Source: Ignavibacteria bacterium RIFOXYB12_FULL_35_14 (GTDB lineage Bacteria > Bacteroidota > Ignavibacteria > Ignavibacteriales > Ignavibacteriaceae). From it: 33,976 bases of DNA. Positions within the stretch are counted from its first letter, which is position 1; each line of letters starts with the position of its first letter. The position numbers were made by a program, and so were the translations under genes. The stretch is from NCBI GenBank assembly GCA_001803045.1, contig MHAR01000025.1, positions 1 to 33,976 on the forward strand, in the 5' to 3' direction. Positions 12,986-25,436 of this stretch are shown piece after piece. A model generated the notes under the pieces. It ran no database searches. It was not told the DNA's origin and saw only the letters and a list, made by a program, of their open reading frames with translations.

Positions 12986-13062
12986 TGTCACTCTGAGCCT
13001 GTCGAAGAGTGACTCACAATCTGCAAATGAATCGTTCAGATTTCGACAAGCTCAATCTGACA
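12986..13062. repeat. Bipartite TGTCA...TGACA intergenic repeat, copy 1
   Basis: Begins TGTCA and ends TGACA. Two hairpins are present: GTCACTCT / AGAGTGAC, loop holding GAGCCTGTCGA; and TCAGATT / AATCTGA, loop holding TCGACAAGCTC. A 22-base linker joins them. Related copies lie at 13877, 14680 and 26817, with a truncated half at 23881. Confidence 0.8.
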
Positions 13063-13797: not shown

Positions 13798-13876
13798 ATG
13801 ACAGAATGGTTGAATGGATCGAAGTCGCTTCTATGGTTTTCATTCCCGCGTATGAGGGAATCCGTATAAAATAGCT

Positions 13877-13947
13877 TGTCAGATTGAGCCTGTCGAAATC
13901 TGATTTTACCATAGTAACCGTCACTCTTCGACAAGCTCAGAGTGACA
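13877..13947. repeat. Bipartite TGTCA...TGACA intergenic repeat, copy 2
   Basis: Same two-hairpin design as 12986-13062 with the hairpins in the opposite order: the ATTGAGCCTGTCGAAAT hairpin first, then GTCACTCT-(TCGACAAGCTC)-AGAGTGAC. Its ends are TGTCA and TGACA. It sits 25 bases before the YdeI-like gene. Confidence 0.8.
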
Positions 13948-13971
13948 TAAAAGTAGTGTCAAATTATAACT

Positions 13972-14547: not shown

Positions 14548-14679
14548 TCGAATGGATGAGTGAGGGAATGGTTGGAGGTGGTTTGTCGAGCAAAAAGATA
14601 GCGGATTATCATCCACTCAATGGACGATTTGCATGGATGAATGAGTGTGGGAAGTTGTCGCTGACTTTTCATGCTATCC

Positions 14680-14707
14680 GTCACTCTTCGACAGGCTCAG
14701 AGTGACA
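14680..14707. repeat. Half-copy of the TGTCA...TGACA repeat
   Basis: One hairpin, GTCACTCT / AGAGTGAC, with loop TCGACAGGCTC. The other half (from about 14655) is degenerate. It lies 130 bases past the YdeI-like stop. Confidence 0.7.
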
Positions 14708-14709
14708 AT

Positions 14710-14829
14710 TTCTATCTTGTATCCACCATCCCACAAAGTGGCAGGCAGCATCTAGCCTCCAGCATCTCAAGCAGCGAGGTTGGGATCTAGTTAGGCAGCA
14801 GGTAGTTTCAGAAAATATATAATTGTATT
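14710..14829. repeat. CAGCATCTAG-type low-complexity repeat tract
   Basis: Contains ATCCACCATC, GCAGCATCTAGCCTCCAGCA and related words. The same vocabulary returns at 16315-16385 and 24604-24628. It is non-coding spacer between convergent genes. Confidence 0.45.
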
Positions 14830-16014
14830 TCAATTTCGAAGTCCTGCTCTCATCAAATCATTTAGACCTGTAATTAAATGCCTTTCTTTTGCTTTGAAGG
14901 TGTTGAACAACTTAAGCTGTTTGTCCTTGAGATCGCCTCCATATTTTACTTCAAACAAAGTTTTATCCTCTGTAAAAAAGTCTATTTCTATTCCATCCTT
15001 ATAAACATAAGCTGGGTTGCGATATTTAAGTTTAAAGTAAATATAATTTTCAAATAAGCTGCCCTTATCTCTAAATCCCGTAAAAATATTTCTAATTCCA
15101 AGATCTGCAGCATAAATTTTTTTTGCAGATAGAAGCCGTTCATTTGTTTTTCCATATCTTGGCAATAACTGTACGAGATATGTGCTCTGAAAATATTCCA
15201 GATATCTTCTAACTGTATCTGGAGAGATCTTCAATATGTTTGCAATCTTATTTATGCTGAACACTTTTCCGCAGCGTTCCATAAGAAGCAAAAAGAAATC
15301 CTTAAGTAGAAATGAATCCTTAATGTTATGCTGAGCGGCAATGTCTTTAAGGATGATATCATCAACTACTTCTTTGAGGTATTCAATGTCTCCCCTAATT
15401 ACATATTCAGGGATGCCGCCTGTGTAAAGAAATTCTTCAAAATGCTTTTCGAATAAGTGCGAATTCCTTTTACTGATAGAAATTTCTTTGAACTGCAGAT
15501 ACTCGTCAAAATCCAGCGGAAGAATTTCTATAATTCTTGCTCTGCCGGTTATTAGACTTTTTTTGCTTTTAAGTACAGAAGATTGAGAAGAAGATGCAAA
15601 TACCTTAACGTTCTGATTATCATAAAGATTTTTCAGCTGCTGCTCAAAATCTTTCTTATAGGCAACTTCGTCAAAAAATAAGAACACCTTTTCTTCAAAT
15701 TTTATTTTATGGCTTTTCCTGTATTCATCAACTATTTCAATTATTGATTTTCCGGTCAGCAAATAGTCATCTAAACTTATGTAGAATATCTTGTTGGGGC
15801 TTATGTCTTCGTTATTAATAAGCTCCTCAATTAACATCCTCATTGCAGTAGTTTTGCCAATTCTTCTTAGCCCTGTTAGAATAACAATATCTTTTGTAAG
15901 AAGCAGCATTTTAAGTTTTTCAACAAGGGCTTGTCTAGGGTAAACACCCGAAAGACTTTGGTGTTTTTCCCACCAGGGATTATATCTGTAAAGTATTTGT
16001 TCCATCGGATGCAA
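14830..16014 (-). CDS. AAA ATPase with DUF4143 C-terminus
   Basis: ATP-binding protein of 394 residues, AAA_14 plus DUF4143 architecture. Walker A is GLRRIGKTT (48-56), Walker B is FLFFDEVAY (111-119), and a Ser-rich sensor-like SSSQSS follows. A winged-helix-like section (KVFSINKIANILKISPDTVRRY) and the DUF4143 region, with a nuclease-like E-x-D...FEVKYGG pattern (IEIDFFTEDKTLFEVKYGG), end the protein. Such genes are common, mobile and of unknown function. Alternative start at Met4. Flanked by repeats on both sides. Confidence 0.9.
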   Translation of the reverse strand: MHPMEQILYRYNPWWEKHQSLSGVYPRQALVEKLKMLLLTKDIVILTGLRRIGKTTAMRMLIEELINNEDISPNKIFYISLDDYLLTGKSIIEIVDEYRKSHKIKFEEKVFLFFDEVAYKKDFEQQLKNLYDNQNVKVFASSSQSSVLKSKKSLITGRARIIEILPLDFDEYLQFKEISISKRNSHLFEKHFEEFLYTGGIPEYVIRGDIEYLKEVVDDIILKDIAAQHNIKDSFLLKDFFLLLMERCGKVFSINKIANILKISPDTVRRYLEYFQSTYLVQLLPRYGKTNERLLSAKKIYAADLGIRNIFTGFRDKGSLFENYIYFKLKYRNPAYVYKDGIEIDFFTEDKTLFEVKYGGDLKDKQLKLFNTFKAKERHLITGLNDLMRAGLRN

Positions 16015-16384: not shown

Positions 16385-16843
16385 TTACTTTCTTTTAAAA
16401 TTTGCCTCGTAAATTTTTATCCACTCTGATGCGCTCATTTTTTTTGTAAGCTCGGCAATTAATTTGTATGGAATGTCCTCCACTTTCTTGAATCGGATGC
16501 AGCTCTTTCCCATATCGAGTTTTGTTTTACAATGATTAGGATATTCTTTAGTGAACCAATCAAGAAGTTCTTTCTTTGCATATATACCCATGTGATAAAG
16601 AGCGATAAAATTTTTCTGAGATGCGATGTTCATAAAGGGCAGCGGCTGTTTGGGGTCGCAGTGATAGCCGCTTGAATATAAAGAATGAGGAACACAGTAC
16701 CCTATCGTGTTGTAATTCATGCATTCCATAAAACCTTTGGGAAGGTTCTTCAAAATGGTTTGTCTTAGTTTTGACATAGCTTCTTTTCGGTCTTCCGGCA
16801 CTTTGCTGATGTACTCTTCGGGTGAGCTGGCTTTTATTATCAT
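16385..16843 (-). CDS. DUF1801 (YdhG-like) protein
   Basis: A 152-residue YdhG/DUF1801 protein. Seen: an N-terminal segment, YISKVPEDRKEAMSKLRQTI, the NYNTIGYCVPHSLY stretch, LPFMNIASQKNFIALYHMGI and the C-terminal MGKSCIRFKKVEDIPYKLI. The order matches the family. Fold is related to the frataxin-like group; function unknown. Stand-alone gene; its stop runs into repeat words. An AGGGAAAAA site precedes the ATG. Confidence 0.88.
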   Translation of the reverse strand: MIIKASSPEEYISKVPEDRKEAMSKLRQTILKNLPKGFMECMNYNTIGYCVPHSLYSSGYHCDPKQPLPFMNIASQKNFIALYHMGIYAKKELLDWFTKEYPNHCKTKLDMGKSCIRFKKVEDIPYKLIAELTKKMSASEWIKIYEANFKRK

Positions 16844-17135
16844 TTTTTCCCTTGATGATTATTTAATCTATAACGGATAATCTTTTGAGCAATATTCAAT
16901 AATTAATTAAAAAATGCAAAAAAGTTGTGTGATAAGGGAGCGGACTTGTTGGTGCTGCGTTACGGGTTGTTGGGTGCGCAAACGATACCGAAGCAACTCG
17001 CGCAAAAAACTATAAATTGAATTGAGGGTTTTGAAGATTAGATGAAACAAATTTTATTAAAAAATTAGATAAGCTTTGAATGTAGAGTCGGGAAAAAGGA
17101 CATCATTAAGAGTATGCTCAATTAGTAAATTAATT
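16844..17135. other. Gap at the downstream edge of the four-gene cassette
   Basis: No gene, no clear terminator and no direct repeat were found. This is where a downstream island boundary would be expected. Confidence 0.4.
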
Positions 17136-18689
17136 TTATGCAGAATTTAGTCTATTCATGCGCCGCGTCACTAATTCATTATATGTTTTTCTAATTTCCA
17201 TTTGTATTTGCTTAGAAATTTTTAATTCCTTATAGAAATAGTCGGATACTAAATCGATCACCTGATCTTTTTGACTGTTCATTAACATGGCCTCAGCTTT
17301 TATATATAAATCCTTTACCCAGCTATAATTCCCGATCCTAATAATTGAGGATTGAAGTGATGAGGGTTCAATTTTCAAAACACCAGAGCCATATACTTTA
17401 GAGTTTGATTCCAAGGATAATTGAGATGGATACGTTAAAAAACTAAGCTGAAGACACTGAATTGATTCAGGAGAGAGTTTATCTTTAAAATAGATTCGAT
17501 GAATTGAATTTGTCGATTGATAATTTTTGTTATTCAATAATAAGTAGGGACATTTAGAAATTCTATATGGAAAAAAAGCATCGGGTATTTTACCAACTAT
17601 TACACTGTACCATGGATTTCTTCTAATCGAGTGTGCTCTTAAATGTATTTTATCTTCTCTGAAACTTCTTAGTAATCCAATATGGTTTTTGTAATTACGT
17701 TTATTGATTTTTAATAAATATTGTTCAGGGATAGTTCCGTTTAATAAAAAGCCACATACATTTCGAAATGACGTGAGTATGGGCTGAAGTGTTCTTCTAT
17801 CAAATTTTTGTTCGGTTATCTTATCACGTTTAAAAATGAAATAATCATTTGCTCCTGTGACAACGCCTATTTTTACCGATGCGATATTTCCAAATGGTTC
17901 ATAACCATGTTCATTTGTTAATTTGTCTATCAAATTATTTATCGAACAATAACTTGAGACAGTAACTCTTCTGGACAACCACGTGTATGAATCAATCTCA
18001 TTAAACTTAATTTCATTTTGGATAGTATTTGAATATCCAATTTTAATCGATTTGTTCACATTTCCATAGTTGAACAGCCATAATAGTATAATTCGTTCTT
18101 CGGCATTTAAAAAGTAATTTCTATCTAGCGCAATCAATTCAATTCTTTCAAACTTTTGTAAGAGAAATTCGCGAATAGAATGCGCATAATCAGCTTGAAG
18201 GAAGGACCATGGTAAAATTACACCCAGATTTCCACCCTCATTTAAATGTGAAGTAGATTTTAGTAAAAAATATCCCCATAAATCTGTTGATAAATTAATT
18301 TTGCAAATGTCTTTTACTTTTTTATAGTACTCGATTCTTCTAGAAACTTGGAAGAGATGATGTCTGACGAAAGGTGGATTAGACACTATGGTATCGAATT
18401 TTTGGGCTACAGGAAAAAGGAAAAAATCTTTTCTTGTAAAATTTTCATTCGGTAAGTGTGTTAGTAAGCCATCTTTTGGTAATTTGTCACAACCATGGAG
18501 TGACAAGAACTTGAGTTTAGGATATTTTCTTTTATACACTTTTTCGGCTGCGAGTAATAAGGATCCTTCACCATATGCCGGATCAAAAATTGTAAGTTTT
18601 GACCTATCAATTAATGGTTCTACAAAATAAGATGCCAAATCGCTTGGAGTATAATAAACTCCATTCTTTTTATTATTTATTGTTACCAT
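17136..18689 (-). CDS. N6-adenine DNA methyltransferase
   Basis: Gamma-type (TaqI-like) adenine DNA methyltransferase of 517 residues. Motif X is GVYYTPSDLASYFVEPL (10-26). Motif I is FDPAYGEGSLLLAA (35-48). The catalytic motif IV is SNPPFVRH (103-110). From about residue 265 a target-recognition region begins with the GNIASVKIGVVTGANDYFIF block seen in Eco57I/type IIG-like enzymes. It lacks any visible nuclease domain. Last gene of a four-gene unit; its start overlaps the preceding gene by 17 bases. Expected to methylate adenine in a specific site and mark self DNA; the site is unknown. Confidence 0.92.
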   Translation of the reverse strand: MVTINNKKNGVYYTPSDLASYFVEPLIDRSKLTIFDPAYGEGSLLLAAEKVYKRKYPKLKFLSLHGCDKLPKDGLLTHLPNENFTRKDFFLFPVAQKFDTIVSNPPFVRHHLFQVSRRIEYYKKVKDICKINLSTDLWGYFLLKSTSHLNEGGNLGVILPWSFLQADYAHSIREFLLQKFERIELIALDRNYFLNAEERIILLWLFNYGNVNKSIKIGYSNTIQNEIKFNEIDSYTWLSRRVTVSSYCSINNLIDKLTNEHGYEPFGNIASVKIGVVTGANDYFIFKRDKITEQKFDRRTLQPILTSFRNVCGFLLNGTIPEQYLLKINKRNYKNHIGLLRSFREDKIHLRAHSIRRNPWYSVIVGKIPDAFFPYRISKCPYLLLNNKNYQSTNSIHRIYFKDKLSPESIQCLQLSFLTYPSQLSLESNSKVYGSGVLKIEPSSLQSSIIRIGNYSWVKDLYIKAEAMLMNSQKDQVIDLVSDYFYKELKISKQIQMEIRKTYNELVTRRMNRLNSA

Positions 18690-19425
18690 AGCAAAAATTT
18701 CTTAAAAATAAATTTGTTGGTTTACATTCACTCGATCTTAAAATATTAAAACAATTTTCATAATGCGGTTTCATTACCATAATTTCATTTGCGTGAAGAA
18801 TACCCAACCATTTGCCATCCTTTCTAATCTTATCTGTGATTAAGCTTGAAAATTCATTGAAAATTGCATCAAGTAAAAATGCCATGGTAACCGGCATATA
18901 ATTAATTCTAGGTATATCCAGACTACTTTCAAAACGATTATCATATGCCGAACAATCTGCTCCCAATTTTAATATATAGTTGCTTAACCTACCGGGAAAT
19001 TGCATATGAAAAATTGGGCCAGGTTGATTGAGATGTTTTACGGCATAATCAAAGTGAAATCTACGAATGGGAATTATAGAATTTTTTATTTTTCTACAAA
19101 TAGTAAATTGATAACTTACTAGATGATATTCTTTTTGTAATTGCCCCCTCTTTTTGTGGTTAACTTGTGTTCCCTGTATTATAAATCCCAAAGTAAAATG
19201 TAAATTATTTTCTAAATTATAAAAGCCAGATTCGAATTTAAATGGAATTCTATAAAGTAAATTAATATCCCTAATTGTATGGAAAAAAAGATTTAATTCG
19301 GTGTGGAAACTATGAAACTCGTTATTTCCGGCAATTACTGGGTTACTTCGAAGATAGTTTATAGTATCGTATTCGAGTTTTTTTAGATCGTATGGATTTG
19401 GGTAACCGCCCTCTACTTTTAACAT
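18673..19425 (-). CDS. Unknown protein of the methyltransferase-kinase cassette
   Basis: I do not recognise this 250-residue protein. There is no signal peptide or TM segment. It is rich in aromatic residues and His. Notable motifs: FHSFHTELNLFFHTIRDINL (about 37-56), RRFHFDYAVKHLNQPGPIFH (around residues 121-140), then PRINYMPVTMAFLLDAIFNEF (around 170-190). The H-x-D-Y ... H-x-Q-F ... PRI spacing could mark a metal or nucleic-acid site. It overlaps the methyltransferase start by 17 bases and starts four bases after the receiver gene, so it is translated in step with both. An effector or substrate adaptor is plausible by context only. Confidence 0.78.
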   Translation of the reverse strand: MLKVEGGYPNPYDLKKLEYDTINYLRSNPVIAGNNEFHSFHTELNLFFHTIRDINLLYRIPFKFESGFYNLENNLHFTLGFIIQGTQVNHKKRGQLQKEYHLVSYQFTICRKIKNSIIPIRRFHFDYAVKHLNQPGPIFHMQFPGRLSNYILKLGADCSAYDNRFESSLDIPRINYMPVTMAFLLDAIFNEFSSLITDKIRKDGKWLGILHANEIMVMKPHYENCFNILRSSECKPTNLFLRNFCYGNNK

Positions 19426-19429
19426 CTCC

Positions 19430-20440
19430 CTAGTCCTTAATGATCCTTATTTCTTCAAAAAATAAAGATTTTTCAAATTTGGGATGAGGAATAGAACAAT
19501 GCTGATGCAATTGAATGGGGGTTTTAGCTTCATTATCAGTAAATCCTACAATCTCCGGATACTCTTGATTGCAATAACCGCATAAGCTAAAATCATTTTT
19601 GTTTATTTCTTGAAATACCCTAGCTGCTTCCCATGGATATATGGATTTATAGGTTGGATTTAATACAAATATTTTTGATATCAATTTACTTTTCCACCAT
19701 CGAATATCTGTTTTGTTTGAAAATACTCCATCATAAATATCTTCTTTGAATTTCAATTCAATTTTAGAAAAACTGTCAAATTTGATTCCACAATAAGTTG
19801 CTGCCCATAGCTTATCAATTAAAAAACCAGGTTTAGCCATTAAAACTTTTCTTATCCAATCAGATATTTTTTTTATAGATTCTCTAGTGATTTTACCCAT
19901 TTTTATAACATCGGGTATAATTGAAATTAACATATCGTCATCCGCTTTTGGAGAATTAAGAATTTTAAGTAATTGTCTTTCATTTTTAGGAATTCTTCTC
20001 CTGATTTTCTGATATCCTTTAACTAGAGCTGCTATTTTCAGAGTATTTTCACCAATTCTACTCCCAGAAATAATTTCATCATATACATTTTTAGCATGAG
20101 TATCAATGTTCACAATGTCAATTGCGGTAATAGATATAATTGGTAAACCTGGAAGTTTTTGTCGAAAAATTTCTGCAACCGAAGGGCCATTTATTATATC
20201 TTTATCTTTTATTTTATCTAATCGATGGTCTATAACTATTAATTGACAATTCTTTGCTTCTTTTAAGTAATCATGGAGGTCACCCAAAAAATTTTTATTT
20301 CTGAAATTTCTGAATAAATAATTTAATTTTAGTTGATATGAAAGATTTATCGCAGCTGTTTCTCTTTTATTATCGTCATCAATCCAAAATATTTTATTCT
20401 TTTTTTTCAAGGTAACTCTATTACTAATTTTGTTTTCCAT
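19430..20440 (-). CDS. Receiver-domain protein with C-terminal zinc-knuckle-like motif
   Basis: A 336-residue protein. Residues 15-120 look like a response-regulator receiver: acidic cluster D21-D22-D23 after KIFWI, phospho-acceptor candidate D71 in QLIVIDHRL, and T105 in PIISITAID. The conserved lysine is not obvious. A helical middle part (140-280) has no known output domain. The C-terminus holds C287-G-Y-C290 and H312-Q-H314-C315, a possible zinc site. The start lies 34 bases inside the end of the kinase gene, implying coupled expression and a cognate pair. No HTH is visible, so the output may be protein-protein or DNA contact through the zinc site (inference). Confidence 0.82.
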   Translation of the reverse strand: MENKISNRVTLKKKNKIFWIDDDNKRETAAINLSYQLKLNYLFRNFRNKNFLGDLHDYLKEAKNCQLIVIDHRLDKIKDKDIINGPSVAEIFRQKLPGLPIISITAIDIVNIDTHAKNVYDEIISGSRIGENTLKIAALVKGYQKIRRRIPKNERQLLKILNSPKADDDMLISIIPDVIKMGKITRESIKKISDWIRKVLMAKPGFLIDKLWAATYCGIKFDSFSKIELKFKEDIYDGVFSNKTDIRWWKSKLISKIFVLNPTYKSIYPWEAARVFQEINKNDFSLCGYCNQEYPEIVGFTDNEAKTPIQLHQHCSIPHPKFEKSLFFEEIRIIKD

Positions 20441-22638
20441 GTCTCGGTTGGCTCCTGAAAAGAAATACTTCCATTTCTTAATTGAATTATATCTTTTACA
20501 ATACTTAAACCTAAACCACTTCCGGTGCCCACAATATATTTGTCAGCGGGATTTAAATTCCTCTCTAACTTGGGATAAAGTAGATTAGAAGGATCTGCTA
20601 TAAATGGTATAAAGATTTCTTCGTACATATCTTTGCCAACGCCTATTCCAGTATCTAAAATCGTAATAACGTTCTTACCATCTACCTTACTTGCTACAAA
20701 CTTAATTCTCTTTTCTTCACCTCCAGCAATAACAGCTTTAATGGAATTTGACAAGACATTTAGAACTATAGAATATAACTCCGCCTCTAAAATATTATGA
20801 ATGATTATATTGTTTGGGACATCGTCATATGATATATCAATATCATAATCATCTATTATTATTTTAAAGGCATTTCTTGCTTTTGCGATTCTTTCTTTTA
20901 AAGAAAGATTCGTCAACGAAGCTTTTTTGCTATCGACACTAATCAGCGACGTCAAACCCAATAAATCTTCGAATCGAATCTTGGACTCATTAAGATCATT
21001 TTGCACATAAGAAATCTGGTTCTGATCACTTTTATCAAGTTTTTCCTTAATTATTTCTAAAGTATTTGTATGGTTTTCTAAAAGTCCCAATAAAGATTTA
21101 ACTTCATGAGAAAAAATTAAAAGGAGAGTGGAGGTTGATGCAATTAATCTTAGGTGCCTTAGTTCTTCTGTATTACTTTTTTCATATTGAAGAATCGCAT
21201 CTGTGGCTTTTGATAAACTCTTCTGAACAATTCTTTTTTCTTTTGAAGGAAGATAATTTACAATATTCCTAACTTCTTTTTGAATATAGTCAACCGCAGA
21301 CGTTACCACTTTTTCTTTTTCAATCTTTTCATCTAAAACACCCTCCAAATATTTCCTTGCAACATCGCTACTTTCCTTTGCTTTTTGCCTTAAATAAAAT
21401 TCTCTATATATAGTTGCCCAGTAAATACAAAATTTTACAAACAACTTTAATTGTTGAAAGGAATTCGATTCAATAAATCCTTCTCTGTTCGCTTTCATTT
21501 CAAACCCAGTAGCGTGTTCTCTTATATTAACATTTCCAACGTAGCTTCTCATTGATAACATATTTAATAACGCCCTGCTTGCATCTATACCCTTTAATGT
21601 TTGAGCAAATAAATACAGTTCCTTCTCAGGAGTAGTTCGCCGCAAGCCCCTTTCCTTATCAATGTCAAGCCAATCATCATCGCCGTAATTTCCAACTCGA
21701 AAACCCTTAAATCTAATCTGTACACCTCCCCATTCATTAAGTATTTGGCTAAGGGAACCCAATGCTAAAATTTTACTATTTCGTATCTGTTCTCTTTCAT
21801 CAACCATTATACCTATCTTTAGATAAATATCTTTCAAATGAGAGAACTTTTCTTTGGAGATAAATTTTTTTTCACCTATATCCATGGCAACAAGTTTACA
21901 AACAGCATTTCCATTTTTATTAATATAGGCAGACAATGTTCCCCAGCCGGCGTCCAATAAATGATCACGTAAGTCAACCACCTTTTCATCAAATTGTGGT
22001 GCTTCTATCATAATATTAAAACCGGGATCTATTTTATATCCCTCTCTTTTAGCCCCTCTGTTGGCTACTAAAACAGCTAATTTCCTCTTAATATAATCGT
22101 AACTTCTTCTATTCCATTCTTGTGATATATTGCTGATTATTAATTTTGTGCCTGTTTCTCCTTTTTGAGATTTCGAAAGGATACCTGGACATTTAATAGT
22201 TGTAACGTCTGTTCCGGCAGTAAATTCTTTTTCCCATGGAAAAATGACATCGGTTTTCTCTTGCATTCCTTTATTTTTTCCTTCAGTAACTAGCCTCAAA
22301 TGTAAACCCAATCTACGACATGAAAATCTACCAATGCCTTTTGAGCCCGTCCTTGGCCTACCGTATATAGGAGAAAAAGACTTTTTGATTTTATTTGTTG
22401 TAGCAATTCTCATCCAAAAGTTTCGCACTTCTTCGTGCGTCATTCCGGACCCATTATCTATTATTTGGATTTCGTTTATTGAATTTTCATCACTTATAAA
22501 CCGTATTTTCACTTCTGTAGCATCTGCATCATAAGAATTTTTAACTAATTCGACAAGCGCAAGGTGAACGGTTTCAACAAGTTTTTCACCAAGCTCACTT
22601 AAGAGCGCGCTATCGACCGTAAAATAAAGATTAGCCAT
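20407..22638 (-). CDS. Dual-GHKL protein: Hsp90/MORC-like N-terminus fused to a histidine-kinase core
   Basis: A cytoplasmic 743-residue protein with two ATP-binding Bergerat folds. First: E30-L-V-K-N34-x2-D37 (N box), D61-N-G-S-G (G1), TGSKGIGRFS at 97-106 (G2), followed by a transducer-like section to about residue 350, as in Hsp90/MutL/MORC-type ATPases. After a helical region (about 400-480) comes a kinase core: His511 in FSHEVKSLL (H box), N box LNVLSNSIKA near 627, G1 ILDTGIGV near 661, IFIPFIAD (F box) and GTGSGLGLSIVKDI near 704 (G2). No TM or sensor domain is seen. It heads the four-gene unit and overlaps the receiver gene by 34 bases. Confidence 0.9.
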   Translation of the reverse strand: MANLYFTVDSALLSELGEKLVETVHLALVELVKNSYDADATEVKIRFISDENSINEIQIIDNGSGMTHEEVRNFWMRIATTNKIKKSFSPIYGRPRTGSKGIGRFSCRRLGLHLRLVTEGKNKGMQEKTDVIFPWEKEFTAGTDVTTIKCPGILSKSQKGETGTKLIISNISQEWNRRSYDYIKRKLAVLVANRGAKREGYKIDPGFNIMIEAPQFDEKVVDLRDHLLDAGWGTLSAYINKNGNAVCKLVAMDIGEKKFISKEKFSHLKDIYLKIGIMVDEREQIRNSKILALGSLSQILNEWGGVQIRFKGFRVGNYGDDDWLDIDKERGLRRTTPEKELYLFAQTLKGIDASRALLNMLSMRSYVGNVNIREHATGFEMKANREGFIESNSFQQLKLFVKFCIYWATIYREFYLRQKAKESSDVARKYLEGVLDEKIEKEKVVTSAVDYIQKEVRNIVNYLPSKEKRIVQKSLSKATDAILQYEKSNTEELRHLRLIASTSTLLLIFSHEVKSLLGLLENHTNTLEIIKEKLDKSDQNQISYVQNDLNESKIRFEDLLGLTSLISVDSKKASLTNLSLKERIAKARNAFKIIIDDYDIDISYDDVPNNIIIHNILEAELYSIVLNVLSNSIKAVIAGGEEKRIKFVASKVDGKNVITILDTGIGVGKDMYEEIFIPFIADPSNLLYPKLERNLNPADKYIVGTGSGLGLSIVKDIIQLRNGSISFQEPTETWKTKLVIELP

Positions 22639-22885: not shown

Positions 22886-23830
22886 TTATCTTCCTAGAAA
22901 ATCCGCAATCACTTTAAATGTTTTATCCGGTTCTTCAATAAATGGATCGTGCCCGCTTCTTTCAAACATTACAAACTCAGCCTGCGGTGCATAGGTTTTA
23001 TATTTTATTGCAAACCTTGGAATTGAAATTCTATCAAACCGTCCCTGTAAAATCAGCATTGGCATCTTCAAATCTTTCAGCTTATCTCTAAAATCAAGTT
23101 TACCAATATCGCCGCTAATCAGAAAGTCGGCATCCTTTCCCGCTATCTGGTAATAAACATCCGTATTCATTGAAAGAGAATCTCCGCGTACTTTATATGC
23201 ATTCGAAGCATCATAAAAATACAGCAGTCCGGAGGGAACAGAGTAGGCATCAACATGTTCCTGTGAGCTTGAAGTTTTTCCCTCGTCTCTCAGCTCCATA
23301 ACTTTTTGCCAGACTTCGGGATATTGATTTCTTATTTCATAATTGGAGCTGTTATCATTTTCCTGCCACATTTCACCGCTGTAAAAAGTGCTCACTAATA
23401 TTAATTTATTAACGGAGTTCGGATAATCGAGTGCATACTGCTGAGCAACCATTCCGCCGTATGAATGTCCGAGCACAGTCCACTTATCAAAACCCAAAAC
23501 TTTGCGCAGCGCTTCAATGTCTTCCACATCTCCTTTGAACGAATATTGATCGGGAGATTTTGCGCGGTCGGATTTTCCTCTGCTGTAAGCATCGAAGTAA
23601 ATTACCTTAAAATTATTAGCCAGTTCAGAAAACCACGGATGAAAATAAATATGAGAATTTCCAGGTCCGCCCGGAATTAAAAGTATTGGATCGCCTTTTC
23701 CTTCAACTTCATACCAAAGTTTTTTAGCGTTAACAGTCACGTAATCTCCCGGGGCGTGCTTAACTTCCTGTGCAGCGACTGCTGATGAGAATAATAAAAT
23801 GATAACCAGGTACTTCAATATGTTTTTCAT
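22886..23830 (-). CDS. Secreted alpha/beta hydrolase (proline iminopeptidase-like)
   Basis: A 314-residue exported alpha/beta hydrolase. A signal peptide ends near AVAAQ (20-21). The oxyanion segment LLIPGGPGNSH (50-60) resembles the HGGPG motif of proline iminopeptidases. The nucleophile elbow is GHSYGG with Ser123, and the acid and base are likely D266 (GRFDRIS) and H294 (RSGHDPFIEEP). Export argues for a periplasmic or cell-surface esterase or peptidase. Stand-alone gene with repeats upstream. Class certain, substrate unknown. Confidence 0.92.
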   Translation of the reverse strand: MKNILKYLVIILLFSSAVAAQEVKHAPGDYVTVNAKKLWYEVEGKGDPILLIPGGPGNSHIYFHPWFSELANNFKVIYFDAYSRGKSDRAKSPDQYSFKGDVEDIEALRKVLGFDKWTVLGHSYGGMVAQQYALDYPNSVNKLILVSTFYSGEMWQENDNSSNYEIRNQYPEVWQKVMELRDEGKTSSSQEHVDAYSVPSGLLYFYDASNAYKVRGDSLSMNTDVYYQIAGKDADFLISGDIGKLDFRDKLKDLKMPMLILQGRFDRISIPRFAIKYKTYAPQAEFVMFERSGHDPFIEEPDKTFKVIADFLGR

Positions 23831-24632: not shown

Positions 24633-25436
24633 CTACGGTGTAACGCTATCCCCAACTCTTACGACTCCCTTATCGTATGCTATCAAATTCTGCCCAAACA
24701 TAACTTTGTTGCCGACTTTCCTAAATTGTGCAAGAGTTTCGAGTGGTTCGCTTCCTTTTTCGGCAGTATCCTGGTTTACAGTTGTAACAACGCACCGAGA
24801 GCATGGCTTGACTGCTCTGAATTTCAAATCGCCAATCATAAAATCTTTCCATGTATCTTCAATAAATGGTTCGCCGCCGCTAAAAACAAAATTGGGACGA
24901 AAGCGATTTATCGGAAGCGGTTCTTTTAATCTTCTGTTTAATTCGTTGAGAGATTCTTGTCCAATAATTAAAAACGGATATGCATCCGCAAAGCTAACTT
25001 GTTTTGGTTCGGGCGTGTATTTTAGATCTGTGTGTCTGTCTGAGTCTTTATCCATAAAAACTAGATGGCAGTCTAAGTTGAGTGCTTCGGAAAACCATAA
25101 GTCAGCATCATGAGAAACATTTTTTGCAATGACAACATCATTCCAAATGTTCACCACCATGTGGTTGGATTTTTGTCCGTTGGAGATTGGAAGTTGCAGG
25201 TTGGAAATTGGTTTTACTTTGTGAGTGACTTCCAGATTATCATCTTTCAAATTCACTTGAAGCAGCGCCATCTGCGGATGTTCTCTTTGAGTTAAGAACA
25301 TTCCGTTTTTATCAACAAGCATCCAGCGTCTGTCGTACTGTAGTCCCCGTTCTTCAACTTTAGCTGATTGAAGTGAAATTCCACCTAAGGATTTGATGGG
25401 GTAGATGTAAATATGTGTTAAGGTTAGCTTGTTCAA
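24633..25436 (-). CDS. MOSC-domain protein with beta-barrel N-terminus
   Basis: A 267-residue protein with a MOSC N-terminal beta-barrel domain (opening LTHIYIYPIKSLGGISLQSA, then GLQYDRRWMLVD) and a C-terminal MOSC domain. The latter holds the conserved cysteine in KPCSRCVVTTVNQDT (Cys215) and ends FRKVGNKVMFGQNL...GVVRVGD. The family relates to molybdenum-cofactor sulfurases and mARC-type oxidoreductases, binding Moco or moving sulfur. Stand-alone gene. A diverged remnant of a related gene end lies at 22712-22849. Confidence 0.93.
   Translation of the reverse strand: MNKLTLTHIYIYPIKSLGGISLQSAKVEERGLQYDRRWMLVDKNGMFLTQREHPQMALLQVNLKDDNLEVTHKVKPISNLQLPISNGQKSNHMVVNIWNDVVIAKNVSHDADLWFSEALNLDCHLVFMDKDSDRHTDLKYTPEPKQVSFADAYPFLIIGQESLNELNRRLKEPLPINRFRPNFVFSGGEPFIEDTWKDFMIGDLKFRAVKPCSRCVVTTVNQDTAEKGSEPLETLAQFRKVGNKVMFGQNLIAYDKGVVRVGDSVTP

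Follow-up and report, generated by a model that had tools for sequence, protein, structure and literature searches.

Bellieny-Rabelo et al. (2021, PMC8011034) described the HEF_HK proteins, 174 of 222 of which carry the domains HATPase_c_3, DHp (HEF_HK) and HATPase_c in this order. These proteins are soluble, adjoin receiver-like proteins and lie in restriction-modification (R-M) neighbourhoods rich in C5 methylases. The authors proposed a new two-component system with paraMORC kinship and with the N-terminal ATPase as sensor (NTPs were suggested). We analysed a stretch of 33,976 nucleotides from Ignavibacteria bacterium RIFOXYB12_FULL_35_14 (contig MHAR01000025.1, positions 1 to 33,976 of the forward strand; hereafter the window), in which a minus-strand gene (20407..22638) encodes a protein of 743 amino acids, with an ATG start, that joins a MORC/Hsp90-like GHKL part to a histidine kinase. 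The architecture of this protein has already been published (PMC8011034). Judged from sequence and gene order, the balance tips slightly towards its serving as sensor kinase in a mobile defence cassette of four genes, which resembles a restriction-modification system but has a phosphorelay as its restriction arm.

The window kinase shows the HEF_HK order, with a core His followed by Glu/Asp in a soluble DHp between HATPase_c_3 and HATPase_c. The window kinase and receiver gave no match to the published models PF19191 and PF19192, even at E values up to 10. The HEF_HK profile matched none of 55 aligned kinases, the window's included (alignment A4), at 1e-3, and the 13 families that 50 aligned receivers (A3) matched between them at E 0.1 do not include Response_reg_2. 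A kinase of another branch (locus L034) scored 23.8 bits with HEF_HK against a cut-off of 24.1, and a receiver of another branch also came near its cut-off. By these profile searches, the kinase and receiver of the window are a branch outside the published HEF_HK and Response_reg_2 models.

Three further genes follow the kinase gene on the minus strand. They encode a receiver (RR, 336 aa, 19430..20440), a DUF2290-like protein that we call P3 and regard as the candidate effector (250 aa, 18673..19425) and an N6-adenine type DNA methylase with NPPF at residue 104 (517 aa, 17136..18689). The receiver gene overlaps the kinase gene by 34 bases, P3 comes four bases on, and the methylase gene overlaps P3 by 17. 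Kinase, receiver, P3 and methylase form a tight, low-GC operon (GC 0.315, with 0.379 and 0.368 in the flanks). The preliminary description of this locus spanned the kinase gene and omitted these partner genes, receiver, P3 and methylase alike.

Relatives of the kinase were collected from genome contigs by a profile search with an alignment of 17 kinases, the window's included (A1), which found at least 569 among 589 candidates; a contig search with the single window kinase as query found no relative. The best 80 were kept, and the counts on them describe the most similar relatives rather than the whole family. Locus genes were called by a search for open reading frames (ORFs) and by profiles that were derived from these loci themselves in iterations at 1e-3 or 1e-4; ORF starts were taken as the first ATG, GTG or TTG, and gaps are therefore approximate. 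A receiver lies behind the kinase in 75 of the 80 loci (median gap −11 bases, within 60 bases in 69 of 75), and P3 lies behind the receiver in 58 (median gap −4, within 60 bases in 54 of 58). When five loci with less than 2.4 kb behind the kinase were left out (L038, L046, L047, L058 and L072), 74 of the remaining 75 had a receiver, and the third gene was P3 in 58, a divergent P3x in 10, an MBL-fold protein in 2 (L112 is possibly a third such locus, by its label) and none in 5. By profile, a modification gene lies near 66 of these 75 loci. On the same basis, the modification partner in the 58 P3 loci is an N6 methylase in 46, ssp genes in 8 and neither in 4. Under a stricter count of the best 80, receiver, P3 and methylase were called in 64, 57 and 61 loci, respectively, and all three in 46.

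P3 was also used as bait (E up to 1e-6). Of 395 genomes from the phylum of the window, 2 contained it (G000, the genome of the window, and G324), as did 6 of 299 from the family to which G462, source of the Psychrobacter locus L049, belongs; G000, G324 and G462 were already known before this search. All five new loci (G508, G512, G513, G520 and G655) have a kinase, a receiver, P3 and a methylase match, the last being weak in two of them (70 and 77 bits) and on the opposite strand in one. In both samples P3 always came with the kinase (8/8).

The methylase is not the only modification partner of the kinase. Eight of the best 80 loci, together with L026 (in G324), have ssp genes beside the kinase, and a methylase was not found there by profile. 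SspC and SspD were recognised in 9/9 of these loci, SspB in 8/9 and SspA in 3/9, again by profile; PADLOC gave 1455 bits for SspC and 301 for SspD in L074, 296 for SspB in L064, and 530 for SspA in L059, this last value being nearly equalled by DndA (525 bits) and by general IscS models. In 7 of 8 loci the end of SspD falls anywhere from 20 bases within the kinase ORF to 18 bases ahead of it, and in L064 the ssp genes run in the opposite direction. A tree of 70 kinases was computed with LG+G4 in a quick search, leaving out 14 of the 80 loci that were unlabelled or double-labelled and L040 (short ORF), and adding the window, L006, L007, L011 and L026. The nine ssp-linked kinases group as a single clade (SH-aLRT 100) that is nested within the methylase-linked ones, and three label changes are enough for the whole tree. 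A single replacement of the methylase by ssp genes is the simplest history, for a tree whose root is not known. Repeated switching to ssp was rejected as unneeded, one change on the tree being sufficient, and ssp was also rejected as the usual partner of the kinase, which is found with ssp genes in 8 of 80 loci and, conversely, was seen in 1 of 21 genomes with SspD. The window's genome G000 gave no SspD match at 1e-20, and the window cassette has the methylase instead.

This exchange of marks, as it appears from gene order, is our best argument that the cassette reads a mark. Because ssp genes replace the methylase next to the same kinase, receiver and P3, we prefer a mark reader over a regulator of one methylase. 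A more specific proposal, which we advance as a tentative possibility, is that of an exchangeable, phosphorelay-gated restriction arm, whose clamp would read the absence or presence of its partner's mark (methylation or backbone sulphur) and fire a DUF2290-like effector. Alternatively, P3 and the kinase-receiver pair might answer a different sign of infection, for example a phage protein or the ends of DNA, with the modification genes as protective passengers or addiction partners. The replacement of P3 by MBL-fold proteins in some cassettes speaks for such a cue, as does the fact that Hsp90-like clamps also bind proteins. Set against these points, the modification gene near 66 of the 75 loci, which in one clade is exchanged and not lost, makes it very improbable to us.

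Under the mark-reading view, the set of kinase, receiver and P3 might supply the restriction partner that some sspBCD clusters lack. Behind SspD in L140 and L146, in the position that the MORC-kinase takes in G324, we saw by eye a DUF262-like protein, DUF262 being a domain of SspE. A survey of 2,678 sspBCD clusters recorded sspFGH in 196, sspE in 199 and both in 36, and most clusters had neither (PMC8092258); if the proposal is true, it offers a partner for some of these. In A. baumannii, sspE was not found beside the ssp genes in 5,518 of 5,530 cases (PMC12421847), and kinase genes were found beside SspE in 211 Acinetobacter strains (PMC7464106). The two-component system or kinase next to ssp genes in Acinetobacter could belong to the family of the window kinase (PMC12421847, PMC7464106).

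Several cassettes among the relatives depart from the composition seen in the window. An MBL-fold protein stands behind a short receiver, instead of P3, in L009, L010, L027, L028, L094, L100 and L112. A divergent receiver (hhalign 95.5 with RR) together with P3x occurs in L077, L086, L088, L092, L102-L104, L107, L109 and L110, most of them near a C5 methylase. P3x of these C5-methylase cassettes was considered as a relative of P3 (prob 17.5, E 0.0014, shared HxYxHxQ), and we do not claim this relation. In the C5-methylase cassettes L029, L030 and L034, the next protein along is by eye base-excision glycosylase-like, perhaps a Vsr-like repair helper. On a Hymenobacter plasmid, the cassette has as neighbours a gene with a Piwi domain and a large DNA methyltransferase (L011, 1219-6856).

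We then turned to the kinase itself. The preliminary description had read two Bergerat-fold (GHKL) ATPases from its sequence, the second within a full histidine-kinase core, and had suggested a profile search for both. Pfam assigned residues 24-128 (22255..22569, minus strand) to HATPase_c_3 (E 2.4e-24, 86.3 bits, cut-off 25) and residues 618-743 (20410..20787, minus), the kinase catalytic domain, to HATPase_c (E 2e-21, 76.9 bits, cut-off 26.4), and both families were matched by 55/55 A4 kinases at E 1e-3. In the first ATPase, the motifs that we take to be the N, G1 and G2 boxes stand from residue 30, at 61-66 and at 98-106. In the C-terminal part, what we likewise take to be the H box is at 511, where the sequence HEVKS begins, and the presumed N, G1, F and G2 boxes are at about 627-635, 662-666, 673-679 and 704-712, respectively. 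Thirteen of the 18 counted box positions are invariant in A4 (E30, N34, D61, G63, G65, G98, G101, G103, H511, N627, N631, G708 and G710), and the others vary slightly (E512 in 52/55, D662 in 50/55, G664 in 54/55, G666 in 51/55 and G706 in 54/55). Position 512 is E or D in 53/55, and in the 17 kinases of A1 the same box residues are invariant except G664 and E512. Both ATP sites and the H box thus look intact across the 55 aligned kinases, with His511 (codon 21106..21108, minus) as the presumed phosphorylation site. No long hydrophobic stretch was seen, the best 19-residue Kyte-Doolittle mean being 1.51 (hydropathy only, no trained membrane predictor), which agrees with the earlier statement that a membrane segment is absent.

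An AlphaFold monomer of the kinase made from A4 (mean pLDDT 84.6, pTM 0.58) contains both ATPase folds; because of the pTM of 0.58, the relative placement of its domains is uncertain. Residues 7-416 best match MORC3 (5ix2_B; Z 22.3, rmsd 3.3, 300 aligned), other MORC entries reach Z 18.8-19.6 and Hsp90-family structures reach Z up to 20.8. Since these Z scores overlap, MORC and Hsp90 are not separable for the N-terminal part, and the 'Hsp90/MORC style' first attributed to this ATPase is right as a fold class. Together with a transducer-like middle region (about residues 208-390, 21469..22017, minus; borders drawn by eye from the secondary structure of the model), the N-terminal part has the GHKL plus S5 (transducer) arrangement of MORC and paraMORC, a fold class that, according to the model, the window kinase shares. 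A long helix and hairpin with the H box follow (about residues 465-567, 20938..21246, minus), and His511 sits within the long helix 465-533 of the monomer model. Residues 511-743 match HK853 (6rfv_B; Z 19.4, rmsd 5.5, 213 aligned), and the catalytic domain matches MprB (6blk_B; Z 20.0, rmsd 1.9, 146 aligned). The HisKA-type features, namely H, N, G1, F and G2 boxes and a kinase-core fold, are present in the window kinase. Both ATPases and the full kinase core at the invariant His511 were therefore borne out by Pfam, alignment and model; neither a single folded ATPase nor an H box lacking conservation in homologues was seen.

The first ATPase is also related in sequence to MutL, and N-terminal residues 6-188 scored 76.9 bits with the BbrUII/HgiDII restriction enzymes (NF050001), while residues 6-172 match two PADLOC REase_II models (2.1e-10 and 3.7e-10). 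The preliminary description had seen in the clamp-type ATPase an unusual sensor for DNA or nucleoprotein. DNA sensing by the clamp is plausible from context, that is, from the methylase partner, the exchange with phosphorothioation genes and the MORC/Hsp90-like fold; the word 'unusual' was overstated, as 174 of 222 HEF_HK proteins have the same order (PMC8011034).

The receiver was assigned by profile comparison and by its invariant residues. Against PDB receivers, the A3 profile best matched 8fk2_A at 1.2e-6. D22 and D71 are present in 50/50 receivers, position 21 is D in 45 and E in 5, and T/S105 is found in 46/50, which gives the REC hallmarks of an acidic pair, a phospho-acceptor Asp (presumably Asp71) and a Thr/Ser after strand 4. 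The lone window receiver matched no Pfam receiver model, and Response_reg was matched by 7/50 relatives (E 0.1). Its C-terminal half, about 190 extra residues, found only weak and unrelated PDB profile matches, the best at 0.0095; in the own numbering of that piece, G69, F91, W100 and C138 are invariant and G56, L58, Y87, G89 and W99 are kept in at least 90%. This conserved half, with a fold that was not recognised, might suggest that the receiver acts as restriction effector in its own right, as a nuclease activated by phosphorylation, with P3 as its adaptor or specificity subunit. We consider such a division of roles rather improbable, for the most conserved C-terminal residues seem to serve the structure, and it is P3 that has retained H, D, H and R.

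P3 of the window matched no Pfam, PADLOC, NCBIfam or PHROG family. All 51 P3 sequences of an alignment (A2) have H140 and R173, and at least 90% of them have H124, D126, P137, P172 and P178. When the set was widened to 64 P3 sequences, the figures were 98% for H140 and R173, 91% for H124 and 94% for D126. When A2 was compared by hhalign with eight DUF2290 members (A5), the two profiles aligned over 61 columns with prob 93.4 and E 2.4e-7, around the common motif (H/R)xD..HPxxHx(T/Q)..R, and the receiver profile, taken as control, gave prob 0.2. P3 lies below the Pfam cut-off for DUF2290 (PF10053), and 1 of the 51 P3s matches it, at 0.038. By these profile alignments, P3 is a remote relative of DUF2290. 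Helicase plus DUF2290 is a tested anti-phage pair that inhibits phage T7 (PMC9122126). Because of its steady linkage and its tie to this tested anti-phage family, P3 is probably the effector. A structure model of P3 has a mean pLDDT of 77.4; against the PDB, its best Foldseek E was 0.39 and a second structural comparison gave Z of at most 4.1, so neither a new nor a known fold is shown.

The methylase matches N6_Mtase (3.5e-17) and Eco57I (1.2e-14) in Pfam and MTase_II (1.1e-64) in PADLOC, and the window cassette thus has the DNA methylase expected of a type II R-M system. Restriction-enzyme models of Pfam, PADLOC and NCBIfam touch only the shared ATPase and methylase domains of the four cassette proteins. 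Two known systems were tried for the window cassette and rejected on partial single-domain matches: MADS (mad2 3.2e-11 on the methylase, mad3 0.031 on the receiver) and MZA (MzaB 3.6e-6 on the first ATPase). For related pairs, it has been proposed in print that kinase and receiver are an ordinary regulator, which here would tune how the modification genes, or some separate restriction system, are expressed (PMC8011034, PMC7464106), and the receiver does have an extra part of about 190 residues without an assigned role. We think this unlikely for the window. No DNA-binding domain was recognised in the receiver (profile matches only, hence an absence of matches), neither the three remaining cassette proteins nor ten scanned neighbours showed a separate restriction enzyme to be controlled, and P3 is kept with the pair in 58 of the 75 nearest relatives.

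We propose from comparative data that the cassette is mobile. The same-genus genome G461 preserves the gene order of both flanks (homology to window 16395-16853 and 24652-25421); other genes fill the interval, and the cassette was not found at this syntenic site. The insertion borders are not fixed, because the stretch missing in G461 also includes a hydrolase gene (22886-23830). The closest neighbours on the tree are kinases of Bacteroidota, Acidobacteriota, Planctomycetota, an unassigned bacterium and Chloroflexota. A search of a viral-contig collection gave 97 kinase relatives; among the 80 that were kept, 18 have kinase, receiver and P3, and 16 of these 18 have a methylase match, some of them weak. 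Near the low-GC cassette lies a gene for an AAA_14/DUF4143 ATPase (14830-16014), and short dispersed repeats at about 12986-13062, 13869-13955 and 14668-14710 of the window have many matches on both strands in the related genomes G461 and G431.

Restriction systems are usually regarded as uniting the recognition and the cutting of DNA in a single enzyme or complex. In the sensor-kinase reading that we favour, the methylase would, by its family, mark host DNA, and the MORC/Hsp90-like N-terminal ATPase dimer would close on DNA and respond to DNA without the host mark. Clamp closure could then drive autophosphorylation of His511 through the helical linker, as the intact kinase core suggests, and the phosphate would pass from His511 to Asp71 of the receiver, a step to which the invariant residues and the gene coupling point. 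The phosphorylated receiver would finally switch on P3 as a damaging or growth-stopping effector. If true, self/non-self DNA recognition is split from the response by a two-component phosphorelay, and such a split permits amplification, thresholds and shut-off. Bacterial MORC-like ATPases would also gain a testable function, and a two-component pair would be tied to mark-based immunity.

A number of observations weigh against this reading. P3 is not universal: 17 of the 75 loci lack it, and of five phylum genomes with the kinase at 1e-25 only two have P3, one of the others being cut by a contig end and two having the MBL variant. The tie between P3 and DUF2290 is limited to 61 columns round one motif and to eight DUF2290 sequences, and an enzymatic role of P3 is a guess from four conserved polar residues, because its fold is without a convincing match. 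The C-terminal half of the receiver may itself be an effector or a DNA-binding regulator. The failure to find a restriction enzyme among ten scanned neighbours applies to the window and not to the 80 relative loci, and some of the viral-contig loci may be host DNA. Most ssp loci seem to do without the kinase: among 21 phylum genomes with SspD, it was seen within 1.5 kb only in G324, in a count that a far-side kinase, as in L064, would escape. The ssp region of Acinetobacter, moreover, holds restriction endonuclease genes together with a two-component system (PMC12421847).

In a search of mainly open-access literature, without bioRxiv, the cassette, the tie of P3 to DUF2290 and the ssp exchange were not found in print. 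The main text of PMC8011034 contains none of the terms 'phosphorothio', 'Ssp', 'DUF2290' or 'phage'; P3 might be among the neighbour groups without characterisation that it names (OG_20, OG_16 and others). The window resembles the HEF_HK/Response_reg_2 system (PF19191, PF19192) in domain order, in solubility, in the receiver next door and in R-M surroundings, and differs in its N6 methylase, whereas C5 methylases are stressed there (PMC8011034). With the MORC/paraMORC ATPases of R-M systems, the window kinase shares an N-terminal GHKL and transducer-like fold and an R-M context; it adds a C-terminal histidine-kinase core, and the nuclease or helicase partners of those systems were not seen in the window (PMC2292703). 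BbrUII/HgiDII (NF050001) and PADLOC REase_II have a related N-terminal ATPase domain. The score of 76.9 bits is far from the BbrUII/HgiDII cut-off of 550, only the first 165-185 profile positions match, and the window protein has a kinase core where those enzymes carry their own C-terminal part.

The defence systems closest in their parts differ in composition. The cassette is tied to the Helicase + DUF2290 pair by P3, a remote DUF2290 relative, but P3 lies under the cut-off and the window cassette has no helicase (PMC9122126). Detocs likewise uses two-component phosphate signalling for phage defence; by its description it is set apart by three genes (DtcA, DtcB and DtcC), including the phosphate-buffer DtcB, and by having no modification enzyme (PMC11728103). 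The link to the SspABCD-SspE and SspABCD-SspFGH systems is that 8 of 80 relatives have ssp genes along with the kinase. In contrast to them, the window has a methylase, and in the eight relatives kinase, receiver and P3 occupy the place expected for the restriction partner, SspE and SspFGH not having been searched for there (PMC8092258).

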